A stretch of DNA of 33,475 bases from Prevotella sp. (GTDB taxonomy: Bacteria; Bacteroidota; Bacteroidia; Bacteroidales; Bacteroidaceae): contig JAFWSS010000102.1 in assembly GCA_017524385.1 (NCBI GenBank), positions 1 to 33,475 on the forward strand. The letters run 5' to 3'. Positions within the stretch are counted from its first letter, which is position 1; each line of letters opens with the position of its first letter. The notes below the pieces were generated by a model that was not told the origin of the DNA, did no database searches, and saw only the letters and a list, made by a program, of their open reading frames with translations. Positions 6,014 through 24,208 of the stretch are shown here, one piece after another. The position numbers and the translations under genes were made by a program.

Positions 6014-7117
6014 TCATTGGTCCATCAGGTTTCTGAGGTGCTTCACCTTGATGCCGTAGTTGAAGCCCTGGGATTCAGCCAACCCAGCGTGGTTGATGGC
6101 AACGAGTTCACCACTCCTGTTGACCACCGGTGAACCGCTGCTGCCACAGAGCACCTGAATGGAGTACATCAACCTGTCGTCGGTGTTTTGGCTGATGGTT
6201 CCGGTGTTGAACTGCGACTTCAGGCTCGACTGTGTGACGTCGACGAGAGGACCGTAGTTAAAGCCCGCCATGTGAAGCAGACTGTTCTTGTCGTTGCTTA
6301 ACGTCTTTGTGATTTTGTCATGGAAGCCATAGTTCTCCAAAGGGTCTTCAGCAGGAACCTCGAACACATGCTTGCTCTCAGGCGTGGTCCTATCCTTGAG
6401 TTCGATGATGGCAAGGTCGTGCTCCATATCCTTCTTCGTGACAACGCAAGGGATGAAGTCTTCGGTGCTAGTCACATGGCTGTCGTTGTATGCGATGCTG
6501 ATTTTGACATGACATTTGATTTCGGCATCTGCCATATTGATATTTTCGAGGTCGCTGATTTTCTTGTCATAATCATCCATCTTGGCTTGAAGCTGTACGG
6601 CTTCCTCAGAGTACCCCATCAAGTCAGAGAAGCTCATGTCATCGTAGATGATGCCATATGCGCAAGTGGTAGCCAAACAGTCATAATCGTATGAAGCCTC
6701 TTCTCTCCTAGCCATGATGCGCTTTTTCTCAGAGGCATAATATGAAGTGAAGTTGGTTTTGATTTTCTGCACATCCTCGTCATCCAACTTGCTGTTCACC
6801 ACGTGCATGTTGGTGGCAATCTGGCCCTTATTGGAGATGAAGAACCCGGTGCCATAGAATAAGACTTGTTTGACAGCCCCCTTGTCTTCCGTCCTTCCTT
6901 CTATGTTGCCTTCATCATCAAAACCGGAGAAATAAATCGGTTTCCTCCCTGGAATGTCAATCTCATAATAGCTCTGGTTCTGCACGAGCACGACGCCCGA
7001 CGCCATCTCGCTCTCGATTTCTTCGTTGCTCTTGTTGTCATAGGCCATCAGAGTGAAGAAGGTGCCACATGCCATGACTAAGGCAATGAGGACGGTGACA
7101 AACAATGATTTTTTCAT
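6014..7117 (-). CDS. Exported trypsin-like (S1 family) serine protease
   Basis: A 367-residue serine endopeptidase, probably periplasmic or surface-exposed. The start is the ATG at 7117, which gives MKK and a hydrophobic export signal (residues 1-25); 'VMAC' at 14-17 could be a lipobox, though hydrophobic residues continue past it. The catalytic triad is readable: His105 in 'ATNMHVV', Asp234 in 'HDLAIIEL', Ser327 in 'GSSGSP'. Between His and Asp there is an unusual insertion (about residues 110-205) that is charged and predicted to be coiled-coil-like ('AVQLQAKMDDYDKKISDLEN'). The core resembles HtrA/trypsin-like 2 domains without a PDZ domain. No partner gene is adjacent: it has its own terminator downstream and repeats upstream. 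No clear -33/-7 promoter was seen. The substrate is unknown. Confidence 0.85.
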   Translation of the reverse strand: MKKSLFVTVLIALVMACGTFFTLMAYDNKSNEEIESEMASGVVLVQNQSYYEIDIPGRKPIYFSGFDDEGNIEGRTEDKGAVKQVLFYGTGFFISNKGQIATNMHVVNSKLDDEDVQKIKTNFTSYYASEKKRIMARREEASYDYDCLATTCAYGIIYDDMSFSDLMGYSEEAVQLQAKMDDYDKKISDLENINMADAEIKCHVKISIAYNDSHVTSTEDFIPCVVTKKDMEHDLAIIELKDRTTPESKHVFEVPAEDPLENYGFHDKITKTLSNDKNSLLHMAGFNYGPLVDVTQSSLKSQFNTGTISQNTDDRLMYSIQVLCGSSGSPVVNRSGELVAINHAGLAESQGFNYGIKVKHLRNLMDQ

Positions 7118-7199
7118 AATGCAGCCTTTTTGGATGATTGGTTGGATTGATATGATACTATAAAGAGACATGGGAGGAAAAAATACTAACACCAAAAAG

Positions 7200-7269
7200 A
7201 TTGAAAATTGAAGATTGAAAATTGAAAATTGGAGATTGAAGATTGAAAATTGAAAATTGGAAATTGGAG
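7200..7269. repeat. 7-bp ATTGAAA tandem array
   Basis: Ten consecutive 7-bp units (ATTGAAA, ATTGAAG, ATTGGAG, ATTGGAA) lie upstream of the protease gene and abut the first large A repeat. Confidence 0.85.
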
Positions 7270-8012: not shown

Positions 8013-8158
8013 TGCTTTCTCTCAAACTTTTTCTCTCCAAATCTTTTCTCTCAAATCTTTTTCTCTTCAAATCTTTTCTCCTAATCTTTTCTATCTAATC
8101 TTTTCTCTCCAAATCTTTCTCTCAAATCTTTCTCTCAAATCTTTCTCTCAAATCTTTT
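8013..8158. repeat. 13-bp AAATCTTTCTCTC tandem array
   Basis: Three perfect consecutive 13-bp units (8111-8123, 8124-8136, 8137-8149) are flanked by degraded copies back to about 8013. The array touches the stop codon of the RyR-domain gene at 8159. Confidence 0.8.
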
Positions 8159-9244
8159 CTATAAGAATTCTTTCTCGTCGAGCCTTTTTCCGCAGTCGGG
8201 ACAATATTTGTATGACTTGAAGATGATTGTTCCACATTGGCAGCATCGGTATTCCCTGTCGGGGTTCTGCAGCCGGTGCATCAATATTCGGTAGGTTTCA
8301 GTGTCTCTGCTTTTCACAAGGTCGAACCCAAGTTTCCTGACCAGTTTGATGGTGTTTTCGGCCAATATGCGGTCATATTCCTTCTCGCCCTCTGTGAGTC
8401 TTGCATAAGGCACCAGGTCGGGGTGCTTTTTGAGTTTGTCGTCCCTTTCCGGTCCATAGGTCCATCCTTCAGCCATCCTTGCCTTCGACCACACCTCGTG
8501 GGTGTTTTCTGCAATAGCCTCACGCAAGTCGATCAAGTCGTCGGGGATGCTGACATTGTCTACATTGATGGGCACGGGCACGTAGGCGGCCTCAGAAGGA
8601 CTCACGATAACCATGTAGTGTGAGGACCCGCTCCACGCCTCTGCAAATCTGCCGGCGGCGCAGTCCTCACAAGGATTTCCTGTTGCAGGGTCGTAAATGC
8701 GAACCCAATCCTTATCTACAGCCAGTACAGTTACGGCATGGAAGTCGTCCTCCTTTTTTTCCTTTCCATAAAGCACAACGTTATCGACCACCACGATGAT
8801 GTCGGCCCGTTTTTCCAAAGCCGTCTCAAGGTCAGCTAAAGTGGCGTCGTAACGTCTCGACACCTGCAGGCCCTTGTCCTCGAGCAGTCGCCCCATGTGA
8901 TGCAACGGTGTACCTTTGTCCCTCAGCCATCTGTTCTGCAATGCTTGTTCCGAAAGGCTTGTCCTATCCACCTCCATGCCCCTTCTGCTCAGGATCCACT
9001 CTTCGCATTGCAGGTCGCACAGATGCCCCTCGCTCTTGGCGGCCATTTTCGCCATGGGAAGTATGGAATAGTAGCTGGCTTTCTCCTCCAGTTCCTCGTC
9101 CACACGTCCAGATATGGATAGCACCGACTGTAGTTCAGGGCTGTCGCACAGTGCCTTGAGCATGATGTCCAATTCCTCAGCAGAAACGTTTCCTTCCAAG
9201 AAGGCGGCCATCTGCTCATCCGTAATGATATTATACTTTTCCAT
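8159..9244 (-). CDS. RyR-domain protein with C39-like protease fold, anti-sigma-like N-terminus and zinc ribbon
   Basis: A 361-aa protein, apparently cytoplasmic (no signal peptide or membrane helix). Residues ~5-55 ('ITDEQMAAFLEGNVSAEEL...') look like the short N-terminal helices of anti-sigma proteins in this phylum. Residues ~65-215 resemble a C39-like papain fold: Cys76 in 'LCDLQCEEWIL', His169 in 'DDFHAVTVLAV', Asp185 in 'IYDPATG', though the usual oxyanion Gln before the Cys is absent. Residues ~236-308 are a clear RyR domain ('AENTHEVWSKARMAEGW', 'YGPERDD', 'HPDLVPY', 'EKEYDR'). The C-terminus carries a zinc ribbon (C334xxC337 and C348xxC351). Its start overlaps the sigma factor end by 14 nt, so the two are co-expressed. 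Regulation of that sigma factor is inference. The RyR and zinc-ribbon calls are firm; the protease activity is uncertain. Confidence 0.75.
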   Translation of the reverse strand: MEKYNIITDEQMAAFLEGNVSAEELDIMLKALCDSPELQSVLSISGRVDEELEEKASYYSILPMAKMAAKSEGHLCDLQCEEWILSRRGMEVDRTSLSEQALQNRWLRDKGTPLHHMGRLLEDKGLQVSRRYDATLADLETALEKRADIIVVVDNVVLYGKEKKEDDFHAVTVLAVDKDWVRIYDPATGNPCEDCAAGRFAEAWSGSSHYMVIVSPSEAAYVPVPINVDNVSIPDDLIDLREAIAENTHEVWSKARMAEGWTYGPERDDKLKKHPDLVPYARLTEGEKEYDRILAENTIKLVRKLGFDLVKSRDTETYRILMHRLQNPDREYRCCQCGTIIFKSYKYCPDCGKRLDEKEFL

Positions 9245-9794
9245 AATTCCTTTCTTTTAATGCTACTTCAGACAAGGCACTGATTGCACGTCTCTTGATA
9301 TTGTAAAGGTTGGCTACGGTGACCCCCATGTATTTAGCAAGGAACTCCGGTTGCACATCTTCGATTACAAGTTTTCTGATGACGAAAACATATCTCTCAT
9401 TCCTCATTGACAAGAAGAGGCGTTCCAAGTCCATCCGGGCATTGCTGGCAGCCTCCGTGTCTACAGTGTCTTCATCCTTGATGGTTTTATTGTAAGGAGG
9501 CATCCCATTGTTGATATCTATCACATGATCTCTTTTTCTAATGAAATATCTTATGGCAACCACCTTTATCCACACGAATAAAGATGAGCGGAACTGAAAT
9601 TCCCTCAACTTTTTACAGTCATTGGCAACGAGATGGATATATAGCTCGTTGACAAACTCATCATAGTCCACCGGATATGAGAAAACATATTTGATGATAC
9701 TGATGATGAGCGGCCGGCATCTTACAAAGAAGAATTCATGTGTGATGCGGTCGTCTCGATTGATAAGTCCTTGAACGATTTCCTGGTCAGTCAT
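9231..9794 (-). CDS. ECF-like sigma-70 family RNA polymerase sigma factor
   Basis: A 187-aa alternative sigma factor. Region 2 spans residues ~18-87 ('FFVRCRPLIISIIKYVF' ... 'DEFVNELYIHLV' ... 'FRSSLFVWIKVVAIRYFIRKRD'). Region 4 is at ~125-180, with the helix-turn-helix 'PEFLAKYMGVTVANLYNIKRRAISAL'. Length and layout fit the ECF-like group, but sequence similarity is distant. It comes first in a two-gene operon with the RyR-domain protein and is preceded by a standard housekeeping promoter. Its regulon is unknown. A neighbouring glycan operon on the opposite strand has a housekeeping promoter of its own. Confidence 0.8.
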   Translation of the reverse strand: MTDQEIVQGLINRDDRITHEFFFVRCRPLIISIIKYVFSYPVDYDEFVNELYIHLVANDCKKLREFQFRSSLFVWIKVVAIRYFIRKRDHVIDINNGMPPYNKTIKDEDTVDTEAASNARMDLERLFLSMRNERYVFVIRKLVIEDVQPEFLAKYMGVTVANLYNIKRRAISALSEVALKERNYGKV

Positions 9795-9878
9795 TCTACA
9801 TCATTATTTATTATGCCGTTGAAGACGGTATGTCCCTCCGTCTCTTTGCCATTTTTCCGGCATGGTGTCATTGCTTTG

Positions 9879-9910
9879 CAAAGATAATGCAAACAGAGAG
9901 CATATCCAAA
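9879..9910 (-). promoter_or_regulatory. Promoter of the sigma factor operon
   Basis: Minus strand TTTG (9907-9910), 20-nt spacer, TATCTTTG (9879-9886). The leader to the start codon at 9794 is about 80 nt. The 9795-10129 interval otherwise holds only this promoter and the divergent one at 10010-10041. Confidence 0.65.
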
Positions 9911-10129: not shown

Positions 10130-11905
10130 ATGAAAAGAATTCTCAGTTACCTATTATTATTATGTTTGTCGACAAGCGCCTTCGCCTACACCCTGAACAG
10201 GGTCAGCGTGCACGACCCAAGCATCGTATGGGACCCGACAACCCAATCCTATTACATTTTCGGTTCGCATCGCGCCTCCGCCAGGAGCACCGACCTGATG
10301 AGTTGGACCGCCTTCACCGCCGCGTGGAAGACCCCCACCAACAACAACGCCTCCAACACCATCGCCTTCAAGGAAAACCAGACCAAGACCATCGTCATCG
10401 GCGGCCAGGAAGTGACTTTCGGCAACTTCGACGCCCTCGCCTGGTCGTCGGCCTACGGCAACGGCTACAACATCAACGGCAACATGTGGGCACCCGACGT
10501 CATCTATAACAACGCGATGGGGAAATGGTGCATGTATCTCAGCATCAACGGCCCCACGTGGAACTCCAGCATCATCCTGCTGACCGCCGACAGAATCACC
10601 GGCCCCTATATGTACCAAGGCCCGGTGGTGTTCTCCGGCTTCAACGTCTCGGCCACGGAAGGTGTCAGTTACAAGCACACCGACCTGGAACTGGCCATCG
10701 GTCAGCAGGCCAACCTCCCCGGTCGCTACAACGTAGGCAACCGTTGGGGCTCTCGCTGGCCCCATGCCATCGACCCCTGCGTGTTCTACGACGAAGAAGG
10801 CAAACTGTGGATGTCGTATGGTTCGTGGAGCGGCGGCATCTGGATGCTCGAGTTGAACGAGCAGACGGGTTTGCGCGACTATGACGTGAGCTACCCCATC
10901 CAAGGCAGCGGCGACGGTGTCACCAGCGACCCCTATTTCGGTAAGAAGGTTGCCGGCGGTTTCTATGTCTCCGGCGAGGCCTCCTACATCGAGCACATCG
11001 GCGACCACTACTTCCTCTTCGTCACCTACGGCGGACTGGCCACCGGCGGCGATCCCAACGACTACAACAATGGCGGCTACCAGATGCGCGTGTTCCGCTC
11101 GTCGAACCCCAACGGTCCCTATGTCGATGCCAACGGCATCAACGCCATCTTTGCCAACTACAAGTTGAATTTCGGTCCCAACGCCAACGACAACCGAGGT
11201 GTGAACATCTTCGGAGCCTACGGCGAGTGGGGTTTCCAGACCGTTGGCGCGTGGTCGGAACGTTCCCAGGGTCACAACTCCATCCTCGCAGCCGAGGACG
11301 GTCGCACCTACCTCGTCTATCACACCCGTTTCCAGAACAGGGGCGAAGGGCATGAGGTGCGCGTCCACCAAGTGTTCCAGAATGCAGACGGCTGGCTCGT
11401 GGCAGCACCCTTCGAATACACGGGTGAGCAGGTGAAGAGCGCCGACATCGCCACCACGCAGCAAGTGGCCAGCGACCAAATCCCCGGCAATTACAAGTTG
11501 CTCATACACAAATACAAGCTGGACCACACCCACAAGGAGTTGGCCACACCGGTAGAAATCCAACTCAACGGCGACGGCACCATCAGCGGGAGCAGCACCG
11601 GCAAGTGGAGCATGGTAGAAGGCACCTCCTACATCACCATCACCCTAGGCAACACCATCTACAAGGGCGTATTGGTGGAACAGACCTTGGAGAAGACCAA
11701 CATCAAGGCAACAGCCTTCACTGCCATGACCAAGAGCGGCGTGAGCATCTGGGGCTACCGCACGGGGGCACTCGCAGGCATCGAGGAGGTCACCACCCAG
11801 CAAGACACCGACACTCCCATCTACGACCTGCAAGGAAGGCGCATCACCACCCCGATGCAAAAAGGCATCTACATCAAGAACGGCAAGAAATACATCAAGC
11901 ATTGA
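10130..11905 (+). CDS. GH43 arabinan endo-1,5-alpha-L-arabinanase-like enzyme, secreted
   Basis: A 591-aa glycoside hydrolase expected to cut alpha-1,5-arabinan. A signal peptide covers residues 1-19 (ends 'SAFA'). The five-blade GH43 catalytic domain follows, with the catalytic base Asp29 in 'VHDPS', the pKa-tuning Asp215 in 'AIDPCVFYD' and the acid Glu283 in 'SGEASYI'. Conserved 'WAPDVIYN' and 'WMSYGSWSGGIWMLEL' segments match the Abn2-type arabinanases. Residues ~460-545 are the small beta-barrel C-terminal domain of those enzymes. The last ~28 residues ('IYDLQGRR...GIYIKNGKKY') are a sorting-tail-like segment common in secreted Prevotella proteins. It is first gene of the operon and overlaps the GH35 start. 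Endo-arabinanase is the best guess; another arabinan-type specificity is possible. Confidence 0.85.
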   Translation: MKRILSYLLLLCLSTSAFAYTLNRVSVHDPSIVWDPTTQSYYIFGSHRASARSTDLMSWTAFTAAWKTPTNNNASNTIAFKENQTKTIVIGGQEVTFGNFDALAWSSAYGNGYNINGNMWAPDVIYNNAMGKWCMYLSINGPTWNSSIILLTADRITGPYMYQGPVVFSGFNVSATEGVSYKHTDLELAIGQQANLPGRYNVGNRWGSRWPHAIDPCVFYDEEGKLWMSYGSWSGGIWMLELNEQTGLRDYDVSYPIQGSGDGVTSDPYFGKKVAGGFYVSGEASYIEHIGDHYFLFVTYGGLATGGDPNDYNNGGYQMRVFRSSNPNGPYVDANGINAIFANYKLNFGPNANDNRGVNIFGAYGEWGFQTVGAWSERSQGHNSILAAEDGRTYLVYHTRFQNRGEGHEVRVHQVFQNADGWLVAAPFEYTGEQVKSADIATTQQVASDQIPGNYKLLIHKYKLDHTHKELATPVEIQLNGDGTISGSSTGKWSMVEGTSYITITLGNTIYKGVLVEQTLEKTNIKATAFTAMTKSGVSIWGYRTGALAGIEEVTTQQDTDTPIYDLQGRRITTPMQKGIYIKNGKKYIKH

Positions 11906-13977
11906 AAAAGAGCGTCCTCATCGCATTGGCTTCCCTTTGGAGCCTCTTTCTCCCAGCCCAGCAACCGATGGTGACGTGGGACCGCCAAAGCCTGCTCATC
12001 GACGGTCGCCGCGTGGTGCCCGTGATGGGTGAGATACATTACAGCCGCGTCCCCGCCGACGAATGGCGCACAGAAATCCGCAAGATGAAGGAAGGCGGCG
12101 TCACCATCATCGCCACCTATGTGTTTTGGAACCACGTGGAAGAGCAGGAAGGCATTTTCGACTGGAGCGGCCAGCGCGACCTTCGCACCTTCCTGGAACT
12201 CTGCCAGCAAGTAGAGATGCCCGTGGTGCTCCGCCTGGGGCCGTTCTGCCACGGCGAGGTGCGCTGCGGCGGCATACCCGACTGGGTGTTGACGAAACAG
12301 GTGAAAGACACCGACGGCAGCGGTGCCACCACCCTTCGTCCTGTGAAGTCGAGGACCGAAGACCCAGCCTTCCTCGCAAGCGTGGAACGCCTCTACCGCC
12401 AGATCTTCACCCAGGTGCAAGGGCTGCAATGGAAAGACGGCGGACCGGTGCTGGCGGCACAGTTCGACAACGAATACCGCGGCCACGGCAGCTACCTCGT
12501 CGCCCTGAAACGTATGGCAGAGCGCATCGGCTTCGACCTGCCCTTCTACACCCGCACGGGATGGCCCCAACTGCGCACCCCCGTCGCCTTCGGCGAGATG
12601 CTCCCGCTGTATGGCGACTACGCCGACGGTTTCTGGGACAAGGAAATCACGGAAGGTGCCGGCAACTACTGGAAAGCGTTCCATTTCAAAGCCTTCCGCA
12701 GTTCCACGGCCATCGGCACCGACCTGTTGGGGAAGCAGGAGGAAAAGACCGAGAAAGGCGATGACGACTACCCCTACTTCACATGTGAACTGGGTGGCGG
12801 CATGACGACCTCCTACCACCGCCGTCCCTTCATCTATGCCCAAGACGCCCTCTCGCTCGCCATCGTGAAACTGGGCAGCGGCAGCAACCTGCTGGGCTAC
12901 TACATGTACCACGGCGGCACCAACCCCGAGGGACATCTCACCACACTCAACGAGAACCAACGCACGCTGGCCACCGCCAACAACGACCTCCCGGTGAAGA
13001 GCTATGAGTTTCAAGCGCCACTTGGGGAGTTCGGCCAGCGCAACGACTCCTATTACCTGCTCCGCCCCCTCCACCTCTTTTTAAAAGACTACGGCGAGAC
13101 CCTCGCCCCGATGGAGGCCCATTTCCCCGATGCCGGCAAGGAAGCCGTGAAAGGCGATGACAGCCACCTGAGATGGTGCTGGCGGGCATCCCTCTCCCCC
13201 ACCCCCGACTCCCCCGCCGGCTTCGTCTTCGTCAACAACTACGAGCGGCTGCAAGGGCTGACCGACAAGCACGGCGTAAGGTTCGCCATCGACGGCCTCA
13301 CCTTCCCCAGCCGCCCCGTCACCATCCCCGCCGGCACCACCTGCATCTTCCCCTTCGGCATCGAAGGGATGCGCTACGCCACCGCACAACTCGTGGCACG
13401 ACGCAACGGAAAGGTGTATCTCATGCAGGTGAAAGGCGTGCCCACCGAAATAGCCATCGACGGCAAGGTGCTGCGCAACGTGAAAGCCAAGGGGCTGACA
13501 CGCCCTGTATACAAGAACCTGTACCTCATCGACGAGGAGACCGCCCAAAAACTGTTCCTTGAACCAGAAGCCGCCACCGCCCCACCCCGTGAAGCCACCT
13601 ACACGAAAACGGCAGAGGCCGGTGCGCCGCGCACCATCGTGAAAGGGCCTGCCAAAGTGGCGGAAGCCCCTGGCGACAGCGACTTCGAACAAGCCGCCAC
13701 CTACGTCATCACGCTTCCCGCGGATGCCGACAGCCTGCTGCTCGACATCGACTACCAAGGCGACTGCGCACGCCTCTATGCCGGCGACCAACTCCTCGAC
13801 GACAACTTCTACAACGGGCGCCATTTCCAATACGGCATATGGCGGTTGCCCAAAGGCTGCCGCACACTCACCCTGCGCATCCTCCCTCTTCAAAACGACA
13901 TGCCCGTCTACCTGCCCCGCGAGGCCGACACCACCCCTGGCGAGCGCGTCAACCACATCACACTCATCCAACCATGA
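11902..13977 (+). CDS. GH35 family beta-galactosidase-like enzyme, secreted (TTG start)
   Basis: The open frame extends far upstream inside GH43, but that part is a shadow. The protein sensibly starts at the TTG of 11902, in a TTGA overlap with the GH43 stop. This gives a signal peptide (MKKSVLIALASLWSLFLPA) and 691 residues. The GH35 TIM barrel spans ~23-330: 'GEIHYSRVP', 'GVTIIATYVFWNHVEEQEG', 'LRLGPFCHGEVRCGGIPDW'. The acid/base is Glu191 in 'AAQFDNEY' (the usual 'ENE' is 'DNE'). The likely nucleophile is Glu296 in 'CELGGGM'. These deviations put it in a divergent GH35 subgroup whose substrate I cannot name. Beta-sandwich domains fill ~340-691. It would remove terminal galactose, or a related sugar, after GH43 action. 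It overlaps GH2 by 4 nt. Confidence 0.82.
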   Translation: MKKSVLIALASLWSLFLPAQQPMVTWDRQSLLIDGRRVVPVMGEIHYSRVPADEWRTEIRKMKEGGVTIIATYVFWNHVEEQEGIFDWSGQRDLRTFLELCQQVEMPVVLRLGPFCHGEVRCGGIPDWVLTKQVKDTDGSGATTLRPVKSRTEDPAFLASVERLYRQIFTQVQGLQWKDGGPVLAAQFDNEYRGHGSYLVALKRMAERIGFDLPFYTRTGWPQLRTPVAFGEMLPLYGDYADGFWDKEITEGAGNYWKAFHFKAFRSSTAIGTDLLGKQEEKTEKGDDDYPYFTCELGGGMTTSYHRRPFIYAQDALSLAIVKLGSGSNLLGYYMYHGGTNPEGHLTTLNENQRTLATANNDLPVKSYEFQAPLGEFGQRNDSYYLLRPLHLFLKDYGETLAPMEAHFPDAGKEAVKGDDSHLRWCWRASLSPTPDSPAGFVFVNNYERLQGLTDKHGVRFAIDGLTFPSRPVTIPAGTTCIFPFGIEGMRYATAQLVARRNGKVYLMQVKGVPTEIAIDGKVLRNVKAKGLTRPVYKNLYLIDEETAQKLFLEPEAATAPPREATYTKTAEAGAPRTIVKGPAKVAEAPGDSDFEQAATYVITLPADADSLLLDIDYQGDCARLYAGDQLLDDNFYNGRHFQYGIWRLPKGCRTLTLRILPLQNDMPVYLPREADTTPGERVNHITLIQP

Positions 13978-16703
13978 CACGAAAGCAACTCCTTTGCACG
14001 TTTTTCGCCCTCTGCACACTGAGCATCGGTGCACAAGAAAGCATCGACCTCTCCGGACCATGGCAGTTCGCCATCGACCGCACCACCGACGCCACGAAAC
14101 CCTCCAAGCCCCCCAAGAAAGGCAAAGAGACGGTGAACCTCCCCGGTTCAATGCTCACCAACGGCAAGGGAGACCCTGTGACCCTCGACACGAAATGGGT
14201 GGGGTCGCTCTACGACTCCTCCTACTATTTCAACCCCAAGATGGAGCCATACCGCAAGCCGGGGAACATGAAATTCCCCTTCTTCCTCACCCCCTCCAGG
14301 CATTACGTGGGAAACGCGTGGTACATCCGCACCGTGGAGACACCCAAGGAATGGGAAGGCAGGAAGGTGACCCTCTTCCTCGAACGTCCGCACATAGAGA
14401 CCACCGTCTACGTGAACGGTGTGGAGGTGGGGCACCAGATGTCGCTCAGCGCACCCCACCAATACGACCTCACCGGGCACTTGCAACCAGGAAAGAAAGA
14501 CAAGATAGCCATCAAGGTCTACAACGGCATCGAGAACGTCTGCGTGGGACAAGACTCGCACAGCGTCACCGACCAGACCCAAGGCGACTGGAACGGCATC
14601 GCCGGGCGCATCACGCTCGGCACCTCGCCCGTCATCTTCCGGAAAAGGGTGGAGACAGACGTGGCGAACGGCAAGGTGCGCATCCTCATCAACGACACCA
14701 CCTACACCCTGCAACTGCCTCAACCCGTCAGGTTGTGGAGCGCCGAAGACCCACAACTCTACACCGTCAAGGTGGACTACCGCGGCGACTCCATCCCCGT
14801 CACCTTCGGCATGCGCGAAATCTCCATCGTCGGGAGGCAGTTCATGCTCAACGACATGCCCATCTGGCTGAGAGGGACGGTGGAGAACTGCTGCTTCCCC
14901 GAGACCGGATACCCCCCCACCGACGTGGAGTCGTGGCTGTCCGTCTTTGCCAAATGCAAGGAATATGGTCTCAACCACATCCGCTTCCACAGCTACTGCC
15001 CTCCTGATGCCGCCTTCACGGCCGCCGACCAACTGGGCCTCTACCTGCAGCCCGAAGGTCCGTCATGGCCCAACCACGGTGTGAAACTGCGCCGTGGTAT
15101 GGCCATCGACCAATACCTCACCGACGAGTGCAAGCGCATCGTCGACACCTATGGCAGCCATCCCTCCTTCGTGATGCTCGCCGCCGGCAACGAGCCCGCC
15201 GGCGACTGGGTGTCGTGGGGGAACGACTTTGTGAAGGAGATGAAGTCCTACGACCCCACCCGTGTCTATTGCACGGCGAGCGTCGGTGGCGGCTGGGCGT
15301 GGGACGAGGGTTCGGAATACCATGTGAAAGGTGGCGCCCGCGGCCTCGACTGGGACAGCCATGCGCCACAGAGCACAGACAATTTCGACGAGATGATCAA
15401 ACTGCCTCGCAACTTCAAACCCACGGAGGAGCGCCCCGAGAACACGCAACCCTGCATCAGCCACGAGCAAGGTCAGTGGTGCGCCTTCCCCGACTTCAAG
15501 GAAATCCCCCAATACACCGGTGCCTACCACCCCGGCAACCTTGAAATCTTCCGCGACCTTCTGCGCGACGGAGGAATGTCCACGCAAGCCGGGAAATTCC
15601 TCATGGCGAGCGGTCGCCTGCAGACCCTGGCCTACAAATATGAGATAGAGCGCAACCTCAGGAGCAGCGACTATGCAGGTTTCCAACTCCTCAGCCTCAA
15701 CGACTACAGCGGGCAAGGCACCGCCCTCGTCGGCGTGCTCAACGTGCACTGGAAGGAGAAAGGCTATGTCACGGCGGAGGAGTGGAGGGAGTTCTGCTCC
15801 GACATCGTCCCCCTGGCGCTCTTCCCCCAATTCGTCTATTCCAACTCCGACACCATCCGCATCGGCACAGCCCTCTACAACACCACCACACGTTTCGGAG
15901 GTGGCATGAGCTATAGCGTCAGCCGAGGCGAAGAGGTGCTCGCCAACGGTTCCTGCGCCGTAGGACAAGCCATCGTCTTCAACCCTTCCAACCTCCTCAC
16001 GCCCACCAAACTCACCCTCACGCTCTCCATCTACGGGCACCACAACCACTATGACTTCTGGGTATATCCCAACCGGTTGGAAACCATCGACACCGAAGGC
16101 ATCCTCATCACCGACACGCTCGACACACGCGCCAAGGATGTGCTGAAAGCTGGAGGGAAGGTGCTAATATGCGCAGCAGGGAAAGTGCGTTACGGCAACG
16201 ACGTGCGCCACACCTATCTTCCCGTCTTCTGGAACACCAGTTGGTTCAAGATGCGTCCACCGCACACCACCGGAGCATACATCGAAAGCACCCACCCCAT
16301 CTTCTCCCTCTTCCCCACCGACGACTGGCAAAACCTGAACTGGTGGGAATTGGTGAACCGCACACAGGTGATGAACTTGGGAGAGTTCCCCGCCACCTAC
16401 CAACCCATCGTGCAGCCCATCGACACCTGGCATATCTCTCGGAAGTTGGGCATGATGGTGGAGGCCAACGTGCTGGGCGGCCGCTTGCTGATGACCACCA
16501 TCGACATCGACAGAGACCTTGAGCACCGCCACGCAGCACGACAGCTGCGGCACTCCATCCTCAACTACATGCAGTCGGACAACTTCCGTCCCGCCATCAC
16601 CCTCGACCCGCAAGTCATCACACACCTCTTCGAGCAAGAAGCCCCCAAGGTGGACATGTTCACCAAGGATTCGCCCGACGAACTCAAACCCAAATTGAAA
16701 TAA
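13974..16703 (+). CDS. GH2 family glycoside hydrolase, secreted
   Basis: The start at the ATG of 13974 (ATGA overlap with GH35) gives a signal peptide (ends 'SIGA', then QE) and 909 residues. The N-terminal jelly-roll sugar-binding domain (~22-220; 'SGPWQF', 'NAWYIRTVETP', 'RPHIETTVYVNGVEVG') and a middle Ig-like strand domain (~225-290) precede the TIM barrel (~290-560). The acid/base is Glu407 in 'AAGNEPAGD'. The nucleophile candidate is Glu498 in 'CISHEQGQW'. The C-terminal ~350 residues contain further beta-sandwich segments. GH2 enzymes include beta-galactosidases, beta-glucuronidases, beta-mannosidases and exo-beta-glucosaminidases; the exact activity cannot be read from the sequence. 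Last gene of the glycan operon, followed by an 11-bp repeat array. Confidence 0.82.
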   Translation: MTRKQLLCTFFALCTLSIGAQESIDLSGPWQFAIDRTTDATKPSKPPKKGKETVNLPGSMLTNGKGDPVTLDTKWVGSLYDSSYYFNPKMEPYRKPGNMKFPFFLTPSRHYVGNAWYIRTVETPKEWEGRKVTLFLERPHIETTVYVNGVEVGHQMSLSAPHQYDLTGHLQPGKKDKIAIKVYNGIENVCVGQDSHSVTDQTQGDWNGIAGRITLGTSPVIFRKRVETDVANGKVRILINDTTYTLQLPQPVRLWSAEDPQLYTVKVDYRGDSIPVTFGMREISIVGRQFMLNDMPIWLRGTVENCCFPETGYPPTDVESWLSVFAKCKEYGLNHIRFHSYCPPDAAFTAADQLGLYLQPEGPSWPNHGVKLRRGMAIDQYLTDECKRIVDTYGSHPSFVMLAAGNEPAGDWVSWGNDFVKEMKSYDPTRVYCTASVGGGWAWDEGSEYHVKGGARGLDWDSHAPQSTDNFDEMIKLPRNFKPTEERPENTQPCISHEQGQWCAFPDFKEIPQYTGAYHPGNLEIFRDLLRDGGMSTQAGKFLMASGRLQTLAYKYEIERNLRSSDYAGFQLLSLNDYSGQGTALVGVLNVHWKEKGYVTAEEWREFCSDIVPLALFPQFVYSNSDTIRIGTALYNTTTRFGGGMSYSVSRGEEVLANGSCAVGQAIVFNPSNLLTPTKLTLTLSIYGHHNHYDFWVYPNRLETIDTEGILITDTLDTRAKDVLKAGGKVLICAAGKVRYGNDVRHTYLPVFWNTSWFKMRPPHTTGAYIESTHPIFSLFPTDDWQNLNWWELVNRTQVMNLGEFPATYQPIVQPIDTWHISRKLGMMVEANVLGGRLLMTTIDIDRDLEHRHAARQLRHSILNYMQSDNFRPAITLDPQVITHLFEQEAPKVDMFTKDSPDELKPKLK

Positions 16704-16738: not shown

Positions 16739-16804
16739 GGAGTTAAAGGGGAGTTAAAGGGGAGTTAAAAGGGAGTTAAAGGGGAGTTAAAGGGGAGTTA
16801 AAGG
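16739..16804. repeat. 11-bp GGAGTTAAAGG tandem array
   Basis: Six consecutive 11-bp units, all identical except the third (GGAGTTAAAAG), sit 35 nt after the GH2 stop and directly before a truncated gene copy. Confidence 0.9.
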
Positions 16805-16822
16805 GATATGTGTTCACTTCTT

Positions 16823-22539: not shown

Positions 22540-22680
22540 GAGAGGACGCTGTAGGAAGGATATACGCTGTAGGAGATAACAGGACGCTGTAGGAAGGATA
22601 TAGGACGCTGTAGGAGACCATAGGACGCTGTAGGAGACCATAGGACGCTGTAGCAATAGGACTCATAGGAGGACATAGGA
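22540..22680. repeat. AGGACGCTGTAGGAG tandem array (18-21 bp period)
   Basis: CGCTGTAG recurs six times at spacings of 18-21 bp, embedded in AGGA-rich sequence. It fills the gap between the terminator and the stop codon of the convergent LRR gene. Confidence 0.8.
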
Positions 22681-22687
22681 GCAATTC

Positions 22688-24208
22688 TCAATGCTCCTCG
22701 ATGGTGGCGAAATCTTTCCATATGTTAGCGGAAAGATATTCTCCTTTCTTTCCCTTCGGCACGAGTAGCTTAGCCTTTCCACTATTGCGGAACGTATTGG
22801 TTCCAATGACAGGTGGACGCCTCATCCTCACCTCCAGGGTGGCCAATGCTTGACATTCGCTGAAAGCCATGTCGCCAATGCTAGAGAGGCTTGACGGCAG
22901 GGAGACACCCTTGAGGTTGGAGCAATTGGCGAAGGCTTGTTCGCCCACGACCTTCACTCCCTCGTGCAGCCGTATGGACGTGAGTCCTTGGCAAGCAGCG
23001 AAAGCCTTTGGTCCAATCTTCGTCACCACCGATGGAATGGTGGTGTTTCTGCATCCATAGAGCAAAGTGTTGGTATGTGTCTCAATGATGGCGTTGCATT
23101 TGTTGTGAGAGTCGAAAACCGGGTTCTCGCTGTTGACGGAGATGGAAGAGAGTTCGTTGCATCCGAGGAAAGGCGTCTCCCCAATGCTGGTGAGGCTTGA
23201 AGGCAGTGAGACCGACTTCAAGTTGGGGCAATGTGCGAAAGCCTGGTCTCCGATGCCAGTCATCCCCGGCGGCAAGTTGAGTGAGGTGAGCCCTTGGGAG
23301 TAAGCAAACGCCCCGTCGCCTATGGTGGTGACGGTGGCTGGTATTCGCGTCTTGGCACATCCCACCAAGATGGCATCTGTGGCGTGCTCCACGATGGCGT
23401 TGCAGCCATTGCGAGAGTCAAACACCTTGTTTTCAGGATCCACGGTGATGGACACCAGTCTTGGGCAGTTTCTGAAAGCCGCCGTCCCAATGCTTTTCAC
23501 ACTCGCCGGAATGTGTATCGAGACAAGGTTGTAACAATTCTCAAAAGCTCCGTCACCGATTGTCGTAACGCCCTCGGGAATGACCATCGCCTCCAATGCC
23601 TGGCATCCCATGAACGCCTCCATGCCTATGGATGTCACGCCAGAAGGCAGGGTCAGTTCCCTGAGTGAGCGACAGTCCTTGAAGGCGTAGTCGCCCACGC
23701 TTTTCACCCCCTTCGGAAGTTCAAGAGCTTGCAAGAGCTCACACCCATCGAACATATGGTCGGAGACACGTTCCAAAGGGCATCGGAACCTCACCATACG
23801 CAGTTGCTTGCACGAGGCGAAGACCCCCTCTCCGAAAGTCTTCACCCTGGAAGGCAGAACGACCGAAGTGAGTCCGTCACATTCCATGAACGCCCTGTCG
23901 CCAATGGCAGTGATGCTTGGGGGAATCACCACGGAAGTCATCCCTGCGAATCCGCTGAAAGCGCTTTCGCCGATGGCGTCGATGTAATAACCGTTGGCCG
24001 AGGAAGGGATGGTGACAATGCCACGGTATCCTTCGCCTTTCACGGCAGGCTGTCCGGCCTTCCCAGACCCTATCTCGCATTCCTTCTCCACCTTTTCGGT
24101 GACATGGCATATCAGTATCACCTTCTCCTTGGTTTGCGTGGTGAAGGTGTTGCTGCATGCGACCAACAGCAGCGACAGCAGAATGGCAAGAGACAGTCGG
24201 GCTTTCAT
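22688..24208 (-). CDS. BspA-type leucine-rich-repeat surface lipoprotein
   Basis: A 506-aa lipoprotein. The lipobox 'LLVAC' places the lipid-anchored Cys at residue 18, and the hydrophobic signal precedes it. After a ~60-residue spacer, about 14 tandem repeats of the LRR_5 (BspA) type run to residue ~480: 'IGxxAFxxCxxLxxVxxPxxV'. Two repeats carry a longer loop with 'CNAI' (~270 and ~360). BspA-like proteins bind host or microbial surface molecules; the ligand here is unknown. There is no sorting tail. The nearest promoter-like site overlaps the start codon (see findings). The 3' end converges on the 63-aa gene. Confidence 0.85.
   Translation of the reverse strand: MKARLSLAILLSLLLVACSNTFTTQTKEKVILICHVTEKVEKECEIGSGKAGQPAVKGEGYRGIVTIPSSANGYYIDAIGESAFSGFAGMTSVVIPPSITAIGDRAFMECDGLTSVVLPSRVKTFGEGVFASCKQLRMVRFRCPLERVSDHMFDGCELLQALELPKGVKSVGDYAFKDCRSLRELTLPSGVTSIGMEAFMGCQALEAMVIPEGVTTIGDGAFENCYNLVSIHIPASVKSIGTAAFRNCPRLVSITVDPENKVFDSRNGCNAIVEHATDAILVGCAKTRIPATVTTIGDGAFAYSQGLTSLNLPPGMTGIGDQAFAHCPNLKSVSLPSSLTSIGETPFLGCNELSSISVNSENPVFDSHNKCNAIIETHTNTLLYGCRNTTIPSVVTKIGPKAFAACQGLTSIRLHEGVKVVGEQAFANCSNLKGVSLPSSLSSIGDMAFSECQALATLEVRMRRPPVIGTNTFRNSGKAKLLVPKGKKGEYLSANIWKDFATIEEH

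Follow-up and report, generated by a model that had tools for sequence, protein, structure and literature searches.

Sigma factor/regulator locus

We analyzed a 33,475-nucleotide (nt) stretch of Prevotella sp. DNA (contig JAFWSS010000102.1 of assembly GCA_017524385.1, hereafter the window), in which a gene for an extracytoplasmic function (ECF) sigma factor is followed by one for a regulator that combines an anti-sigma-like head, a papain-like C39 domain, a RyR domain, and a zinc ribbon. A first-pass annotation had proposed that the two genes form a regulatory switch built from these four modules. The pair is a real feature and the proposal was partly supported: the evidence favors a four-module sigma/regulator switch, and the sigma factor pairing recurred in 79 of 80 relative loci, well beyond Prevotella. 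The parts of the pair are:

9231–9794, minus strand: ECF-type sigma factor, 187 amino acids (aa), from the open reading frame (ORF), a TIGR02937 match, and identity to relatives
8159–9244, minus strand: regulator, 361 aa, from the ORF and domain matches
9077–9244, minus strand: three-helix anti-sigma-like head, residues 1–56 (helices 9–16, 22–34, and 36–56)
8588–9037, minus strand: C39 papain-like cysteine protease domain, residues 70–219, with Cys76, His169, and Asp185
8318–8584, minus strand: RyR domain, residues 221–309 (PF02026, E 7e-30), with pocket residues H249, W252, R256, R267, H274, and D291
8177–8254, minus strand: C-terminal zinc ribbon, residues 331–356, optional in the family (sub-threshold zinc-ribbon matches)

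The sigma factor has the ECF sigma70 layout of sigma regions 2 and 4 only. TIGR02937 matched its residues 21–176 (E 7e-11) with 42.0 bits against a cut-off of 42.9, and a relative that adjoins a regulator (G104:C30:41902) exceeded the cut-off at 48.2 bits. Alignment with 14 relatives gave identities of 51–59% for the window sigma factor.

A profile-guided scan of genome contigs confirmed 175 relatives, and our counts use the best 80 loci, several of which are near-duplicates, so that counts over loci are not independent. By title, these best 80 of 175 were Bacteroidia, which we take to be mostly members of Bacteroidales families, with the exception of a metagenome-assembled genome titled Clostridiales (L120). 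A same-type sigma gene immediately preceded the regulator gene, with both on one strand, in 79/80 loci (74 with the first ORF choice and five more with all ORFs), and the remaining locus, L158, had a weak sigma match only. Among the 74, the most frequent gene overlaps were 11 nt (23 loci), 14 nt (11), and 23 nt (11), with no overlap in ten; start codons, and hence overlap lengths, were set by the ORF rule used. Within the family of the window organism, 92/399 genomes matched the regulator at E ≤ 0.001, many of them through one domain only.

The regulator family is modular, with head-C39-RyR-zinc ribbon, head-C39-RyR, head-C39, C39-RyR, RyR-ribbon, and RyR-alone forms. The C..C-C..C pattern of the zinc ribbon was present in 37 of 92 aligned regulators. 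In one relative only (L181), three consecutive genes encoded the sigma factor, a protein consisting of the head (160 aa), and one consisting of C39 (188 aa), and in L183 the sigma gene was followed by one for a 78-aa head-only protein. A head profile recovered both stand-alone heads (E 6e-6 in L181 and 3e-10 in L183; best shuffle of 205 sequences, 0.03). The window regulator contained no hydrophobic membrane segment. A pyrimidine-rich tandem array with a 13–14 bp unit in roughly 10–11 copies lies at and just past the end of the regulator gene (8016–8176). C39 proteins of the regulator type also occurred near dynamin-family GTPase genes: in L181 (1–999) a Dynamin_N protein gene is immediately beside the C39 gene, and on an Anabaena plasmid (L178:2683–6297) an annotated dynamin-family GTPase is two genes downstream of it.

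Anti-sigma-like head

The regulator gene occupies the position of a class I anti-sigma factor, immediately after the ECF gene in the same orientation and usually overlapping it (79/80 loci). Heads of relatives matched zf-HC2 in 7/10 queries (best E 3.4e-4) and RseA_N in 4/10, all below cut-off, and a whole-protein scan at E ≤ 0.1 found zf-HC2 in 11 and RseA_N in 5 of the 92 regulators. Gene arrangement therefore suggests an anti-sigma role well, and sequence does so weakly, because the relatives' matches are below cut-off and the window's own head is unmatched. For the anti-sigma-like N-terminus of the first-pass annotation, gene arrangement and the stand-alone heads beside sigma genes speak in its favor, and the lack of a family match to the window head speaks against it. 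We consider it highly likely that the head holds the sigma factor; the likelihoods we attach to mechanistic claims are judgements, not computed values.

C39 domain

The window regulator has the papain-like C39 fold with Cys-His-Asp, one of two fold matches that the switch proposal called for. Cys76 and His169 were invariant in all 92 aligned regulators, and position 185 was D in 74, N in 11, and E in seven. C39 peptidases usually carry an oxyanion Gln six residues ahead of the Cys. This position (70) is K in the window regulator and mixed, not conserved, in the family. The earlier suggestion that the core may bind but not cut was right about the missing Gln, but the invariant Cys and His, together with a third residue confined to D, N, or E, make a non-cutting domain less likely. 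A pseudo-protease limited to binding, with the ligand at the RyR domain freeing the sigma factor by a change of shape and without cleavage, would account for the loss of the Gln and for a C39-RyR paralogue (L065:11285–11941) in which the catalytic residues are missing from the alignment. We regard it as unlikely given these conserved residues and the alignment of all three catalytic positions in the separate C39 protein of L181, and favor a C39 domain that is probably an active protease. Unlike the C39 peptidases PCAT1 and ComA, the window regulator lacks an ABC exporter, a hydrophobic membrane segment, and the canonical Gln.

RyR domain and pocket

PF02026 matched the window RyR domain with 103.5 bits against a cut-off of 27.4. 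The available text of a May 2026 preprint (PMC13232231) describes RyDEP, phage RyR-domain anti-Thoeris proteins that degrade or sequester signals, and the spacing of the residues that RyDEP uses for cyclic ADP-ribose signals (0, +3, +25, +42) is matched exactly by H249, W252, H274, and D291 of the window regulator. This spaced H-W-H-D pattern arose in 23 of 100,000 shuffles of the regulator. Among 88 RyR-bearing rows of the alignment, H249 and W252 were kept in 88, R267 in 87, and R256 and D291 in 86; H249 and D291 are the positions of the RyDEP catalytic dyad, as given in the same text. RyDEP and the window regulator share the RyR fold, but the latter is host-encoded, is fused to a protease and an anti-sigma-like head, and is predicted to sense the signal rather than evade it. 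The preprint, in the part available, also gives a Bacteroides thetaiotaomicron RyR-like protein as a structural match. The stand-alone B. thetaiotaomicron RyR protein (PDB 3nrt and 6uag, open and closed dimers by entry titles) was 57–60% identical to the window domain; it contains RyR only, and the protease, head, and sigma factor are features of the window pair.

From these residues, we think it quite likely that the RyR domain binds an ADP-ribose (ADPR)-type nucleotide, and it probably senses an immune signal related to nicotinamide adenine dinucleotide (NAD). The sensor of CalpL hydrolyzes its own ligand, according to the accessible part of PMC11417357, and since both dyad residues are kept, the window domain might by analogy do so as well.

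A different ligand would fit the same switch. In the accessible part of PMC12627627, Repeat12 of animal RyR binds an ATP analogue and ADP, and a common nucleotide may thus be the ligand here as well. The RyR3 contacts to the ATP analogue described there, Trp880, Lys884, and Arg895, align with W252, R256, and R267, which are kept in 88, 86, and 87 of the 88 rows, and RyR3 H877, W880, and H902 align with H249, W252, and H274. The RyR domain would then report an adenine nucleotide level (ATP, ADP, or ADPR) as a metabolic or stress cue, and TIR neighbors would reflect general clustering of defense genes. The retention of the RyDEP dyad argues against this alternative, as does the gene neighborhood considered below, and we rate it as rather unlikely.

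Retention of both dyad positions is also what would be expected if the RyR domain were mainly a signal-destroying enzyme or sponge, like the phage RyR proteins in the available text of PMC13232231, with the C39 domain acting on an outside substrate and the sigma factor merely co-expressed. However, the pairing of sigma factor and head persists where C39 is separate (L181) or was not seen in the available flank (L183), and the RyR part is missing from the sigma-paired regulators L076, L078, L079, and L080, making this explanation improbable. We thus retain the RyR domain as the likely ligand sensor, as the first-pass annotation had suggested; in place of its idea that the sigma factor may itself be cut, the anti-sigma head is the likely target of any proteolysis.

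TIR proteins and other neighbors

TIR proximity was evaluated for 23 of the regulator loci with strong matches, leaving out several head-C39 matches without RyR (e.g., G019, G084, and G129). In the 23 genomes, 34 of 86 TIR_2 matches were within 20 kb of a regulator locus, with 1.28 expected from genome size, and 15/23 loci had a TIR within that distance, 14 of them from other genomes and none from the window's. A first control of other ECF genes, drawn from 15 genomes after the TIR result was known, had 5/150 rows near a TIR among the matches listed, compared to 15/16 for the regulator there. Because that control was drawn late and its count covers the matches listed, the remaining eight of the 23 genomes were added, in which 0/111 rows were near a TIR (counted by eye, with seven sigma partners left out; one ECF sits 20.1 kb from a TIR). 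The combined controls, 5/261 among the matches listed versus 15/23 regulator loci, argue against an ordinary adenine nucleotide as the cue, while the lack of a nearby TIR in the window clade favors it.

The neighbor census covered flanks of up to 8 kb in the 80 loci, many ended by contig ends, and its gene-family labels are BLAST clusters named for a sampled member. A TIR profile found TIR ORFs in 52/80 loci. Clustering showed three further kinds of neighbor: an RCK-type family (31 loci), RyR-only genes (26), and a second large family (14); at least one of the four was present in 70/80. Two of three distinct RCK-type members scanned matched Slo-like_RCK (one over cut-off), and both scanned members of the second large family had a weak C-terminal RyR match. 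Sampled neighbors included ThsB_TIR, SIR2_2 with TIR, TIR with FGE-sulfatase, PrsW and M48 peptidases, and nSTAND with WD40. We consider it somewhat probable that TIR proteins make the signal for the RyR domain. As in Thoeris, the islands of relatives hold TIR proteins, some ThsB_TIR-like, in addition to a SIR2-TIR family, but the window-type arm would end in transcription. Thoeris encodes its TIR synthase with the effector, and no TIR was found near the window pair or elsewhere on its contig.

The TIR fused to FGE-sulfatase (L065:4347–5792), a domain that presumably has a C-type-lectin-like fold, belongs to a BLAST cluster present in 10/80 loci. In one protein (L088:9977–12487), a RyR domain at the N-terminus is joined to hydrophobic segments and to a region that matches Slo-like RCK below threshold; this is possibly a nucleotide-gated channel. 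On a Priestia plasmid (L179:1–7862), a RyR-only gene adjoins one annotated with a cyclase domain, and a TIR gene and a gene annotated as a Pycsar effector lie close by.

In the window itself, GH43, GH35, and GH2-type glycosidase genes adjoin the pair on the opposite strand (10130–16703) and had no DNA match in L081, which with L082 is the closest relative of the window pair. A BspA-type LRR_5 protein (E 1e-91) is encoded at 22688–24208, and among the first 20 relative loci, three contained this same LRR cluster.

Candidate sigma-target promoter

Upstream regions in the 80 loci shared the motif TGATAGATT-N15-YTCTWTA. The exact motif occurred at 21 sites in 93 loci, 19 of them intergenic and within 300 bp of a gene, while the reversed motif had none. 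When as many as two mismatches were allowed, the motif ended a median of 29 bp before the start codon, and stand-alone RyR genes were the largest class behind the motif (19/47). Counted by gene class (at most two mismatches, in the 150 bp ahead of the gene), the motif preceded 18/32 RyR-only, 8/17 WG-repeat, 1/60 TIR-cluster, 0/31 RCK-type, and 11/823 other genes, and the reversed motif preceded 1/1,200 genes. The 23 main-set genomes had 45 sites at one mismatch versus 4 for the reversed motif, with nine exact, and 30 genomes chosen for lacking the regulator had 34 versus 23, with one exact. This enrichment makes it fairly likely that the motif is read by this type of sigma factor, in which case the inducible output would include a small RyR protein, a natural off-switch.

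Further features belong to this part of the locus:

9879–9910, minus strand: probable housekeeping-type promoter serving the pair, TTTG-N20-TATCTTTG
7161–7191, minus strand: variant of the candidate sigma-target promoter, differing from the family motif at three positions
6014–7117, minus strand: trypsin/HtrA-like protease with a hydrophobic N-terminus, candidate sigma target (PF13365, E 8e-15)

Since the motif preceded only 1/90 sigma and 0/96 regulator genes, transcription of the pair probably depends on the housekeeping sigma factor. The elements at 9879–9910 fit what we take to be the housekeeping consensus, and the pairs of L081 (spacing 20) and L082 (spacing 19) are preceded by the same elements. 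The 7161–7191 site ends 43 bp before the ATG of the trypsin-like protease gene. A relaxed pattern covering it, relaxed after the site was seen, had two exact sites in 5.05 Mb. A site resembling it follows the regulator gene of L081, yet no trypsin-like gene comes next in the ORF list. A short tandem array lies directly upstream of the candidate promoter (7200–7266), and further arrays, with units of 7 to 41 bp across the set, are at 2153–2244, 733–825, 22543–22653, and 16739–16805.

Proposed mechanism

We propose that the head (residues 1–56) would keep the ECF sigma factor inactive until the RyR domain takes up an ADP-ribose-type nucleotide, most likely cyclic ADPR from the TIR proteins encoded near the pair in most relatives examined. 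Binding would activate the C39 domain, perhaps through closure of an RyR dimer, and C39 would cut the head off the rest of the regulator, in cis or between partners. The released sigma factor would then read the motif promoters. Its most frequent target would be a small stand-alone RyR gene, whose product may sponge or hydrolyze the signal and end the response; other island genes may also be sigma-driven, and in the window the nearest candidate is the trypsin-like protease. Whether such a poised switch, driven by an ADPR-type signal and head cleavage, operates here is in our view evenly balanced, and the same holds for release of the sigma factor by cleavage.

Several results weigh against this mechanism. 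Besides the absence of any zf-HC2, RseA_N, or other anti-sigma family match to the window head, a fold search of the head alone gave no useful match to a solved structure. H274 was kept in 54/88 RyR rows and differed in 34 (T in 23, N in 11), and the binding of ordinary nucleotides by animal RyR counts here as well. The window contig has no TIR or second RyR gene, and all three TIRs of the window genome are on other contigs; one of them, by sequence start and not confirmed by profile, resembles the SIR2-TIR and nSTAND pair of relatives. Ten of the 80 loci had none of the four neighbor families, including L081 and L082, in whose searched flanks no TIR, RCK-type, or further RyR gene was found, and 28/80 had no TIR in the flanks searched. 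The promoter at 7161–7191 is a weak variant of the motif, and at one mismatch the motif was absent from 4/23 main-set genomes, including the pair-bearing G233. The motif also preceded 5/15 RyR-only genes in genomes where no full regulator was found, and three of those five genomes had no such sigma factor at E ≤ 1e-6.

The closest known logic is that of CalpL/CalpT/CalpS in type III CRISPR, which in the accessible part of PMC11417357 places a nucleotide messenger, a protease, an anti-sigma factor, and an ECF sigma factor in one cascade. That logic is already known; the parts and their fusion differ here. Sensor, protease, and anti-sigma are one polypeptide in the window regulator, which has RyR and C39 instead of SAVED and Lon. 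Neither of the latter was found in its Pfam scan at E ≤ 1, in which RyR, C39-like, zinc-ribbon, and YhfH families were listed.

Implications

Our literature search, which covered few subscription papers, found no description of the sigma/RyR-regulator pair, and for a RyR domain with a sigma factor, within the text available, only a T4-like phage context. The main text of PMC13232231, as available, mentions neither C39, TrkA, nor "bacterial RyR", and its single "sigma" is a supplier; its phage evasion proteins were the only RyR functions on immune nucleotides that we found in print. We tentatively put forward, as a reading that falls a little short of even, that the pair serves the host as a receptor for cyclic ADPR made by TIR proteins, with RyR acting through a fused protease and anti-sigma head on an ECF-sigma program that has a sigma-driven stand-alone RyR off-switch.

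The action of cyclic ADPR on animal ryanodine receptors has long been debated. If our reading is true, TIR-to-RyR signaling would have a bacterial counterpart, because the islands of relatives also encode RCK-type proteins that resemble channels, a RyR domain being present in some, and it would be relevant to a possible response of animal RyR Repeat12 domains to cyclic ADPR. It would also show the Calp logic a second time, independently of CRISPR. With the candidate promoter, the regulon can be tested. A host RyR sensor that uses the phage proteins' pocket and acts on a sigma factor would mean that bacterial TIR alarms can drive gene expression and not only cell death, and the pair in this gut bacterium suggests a route from infection alarm to new gene expression.
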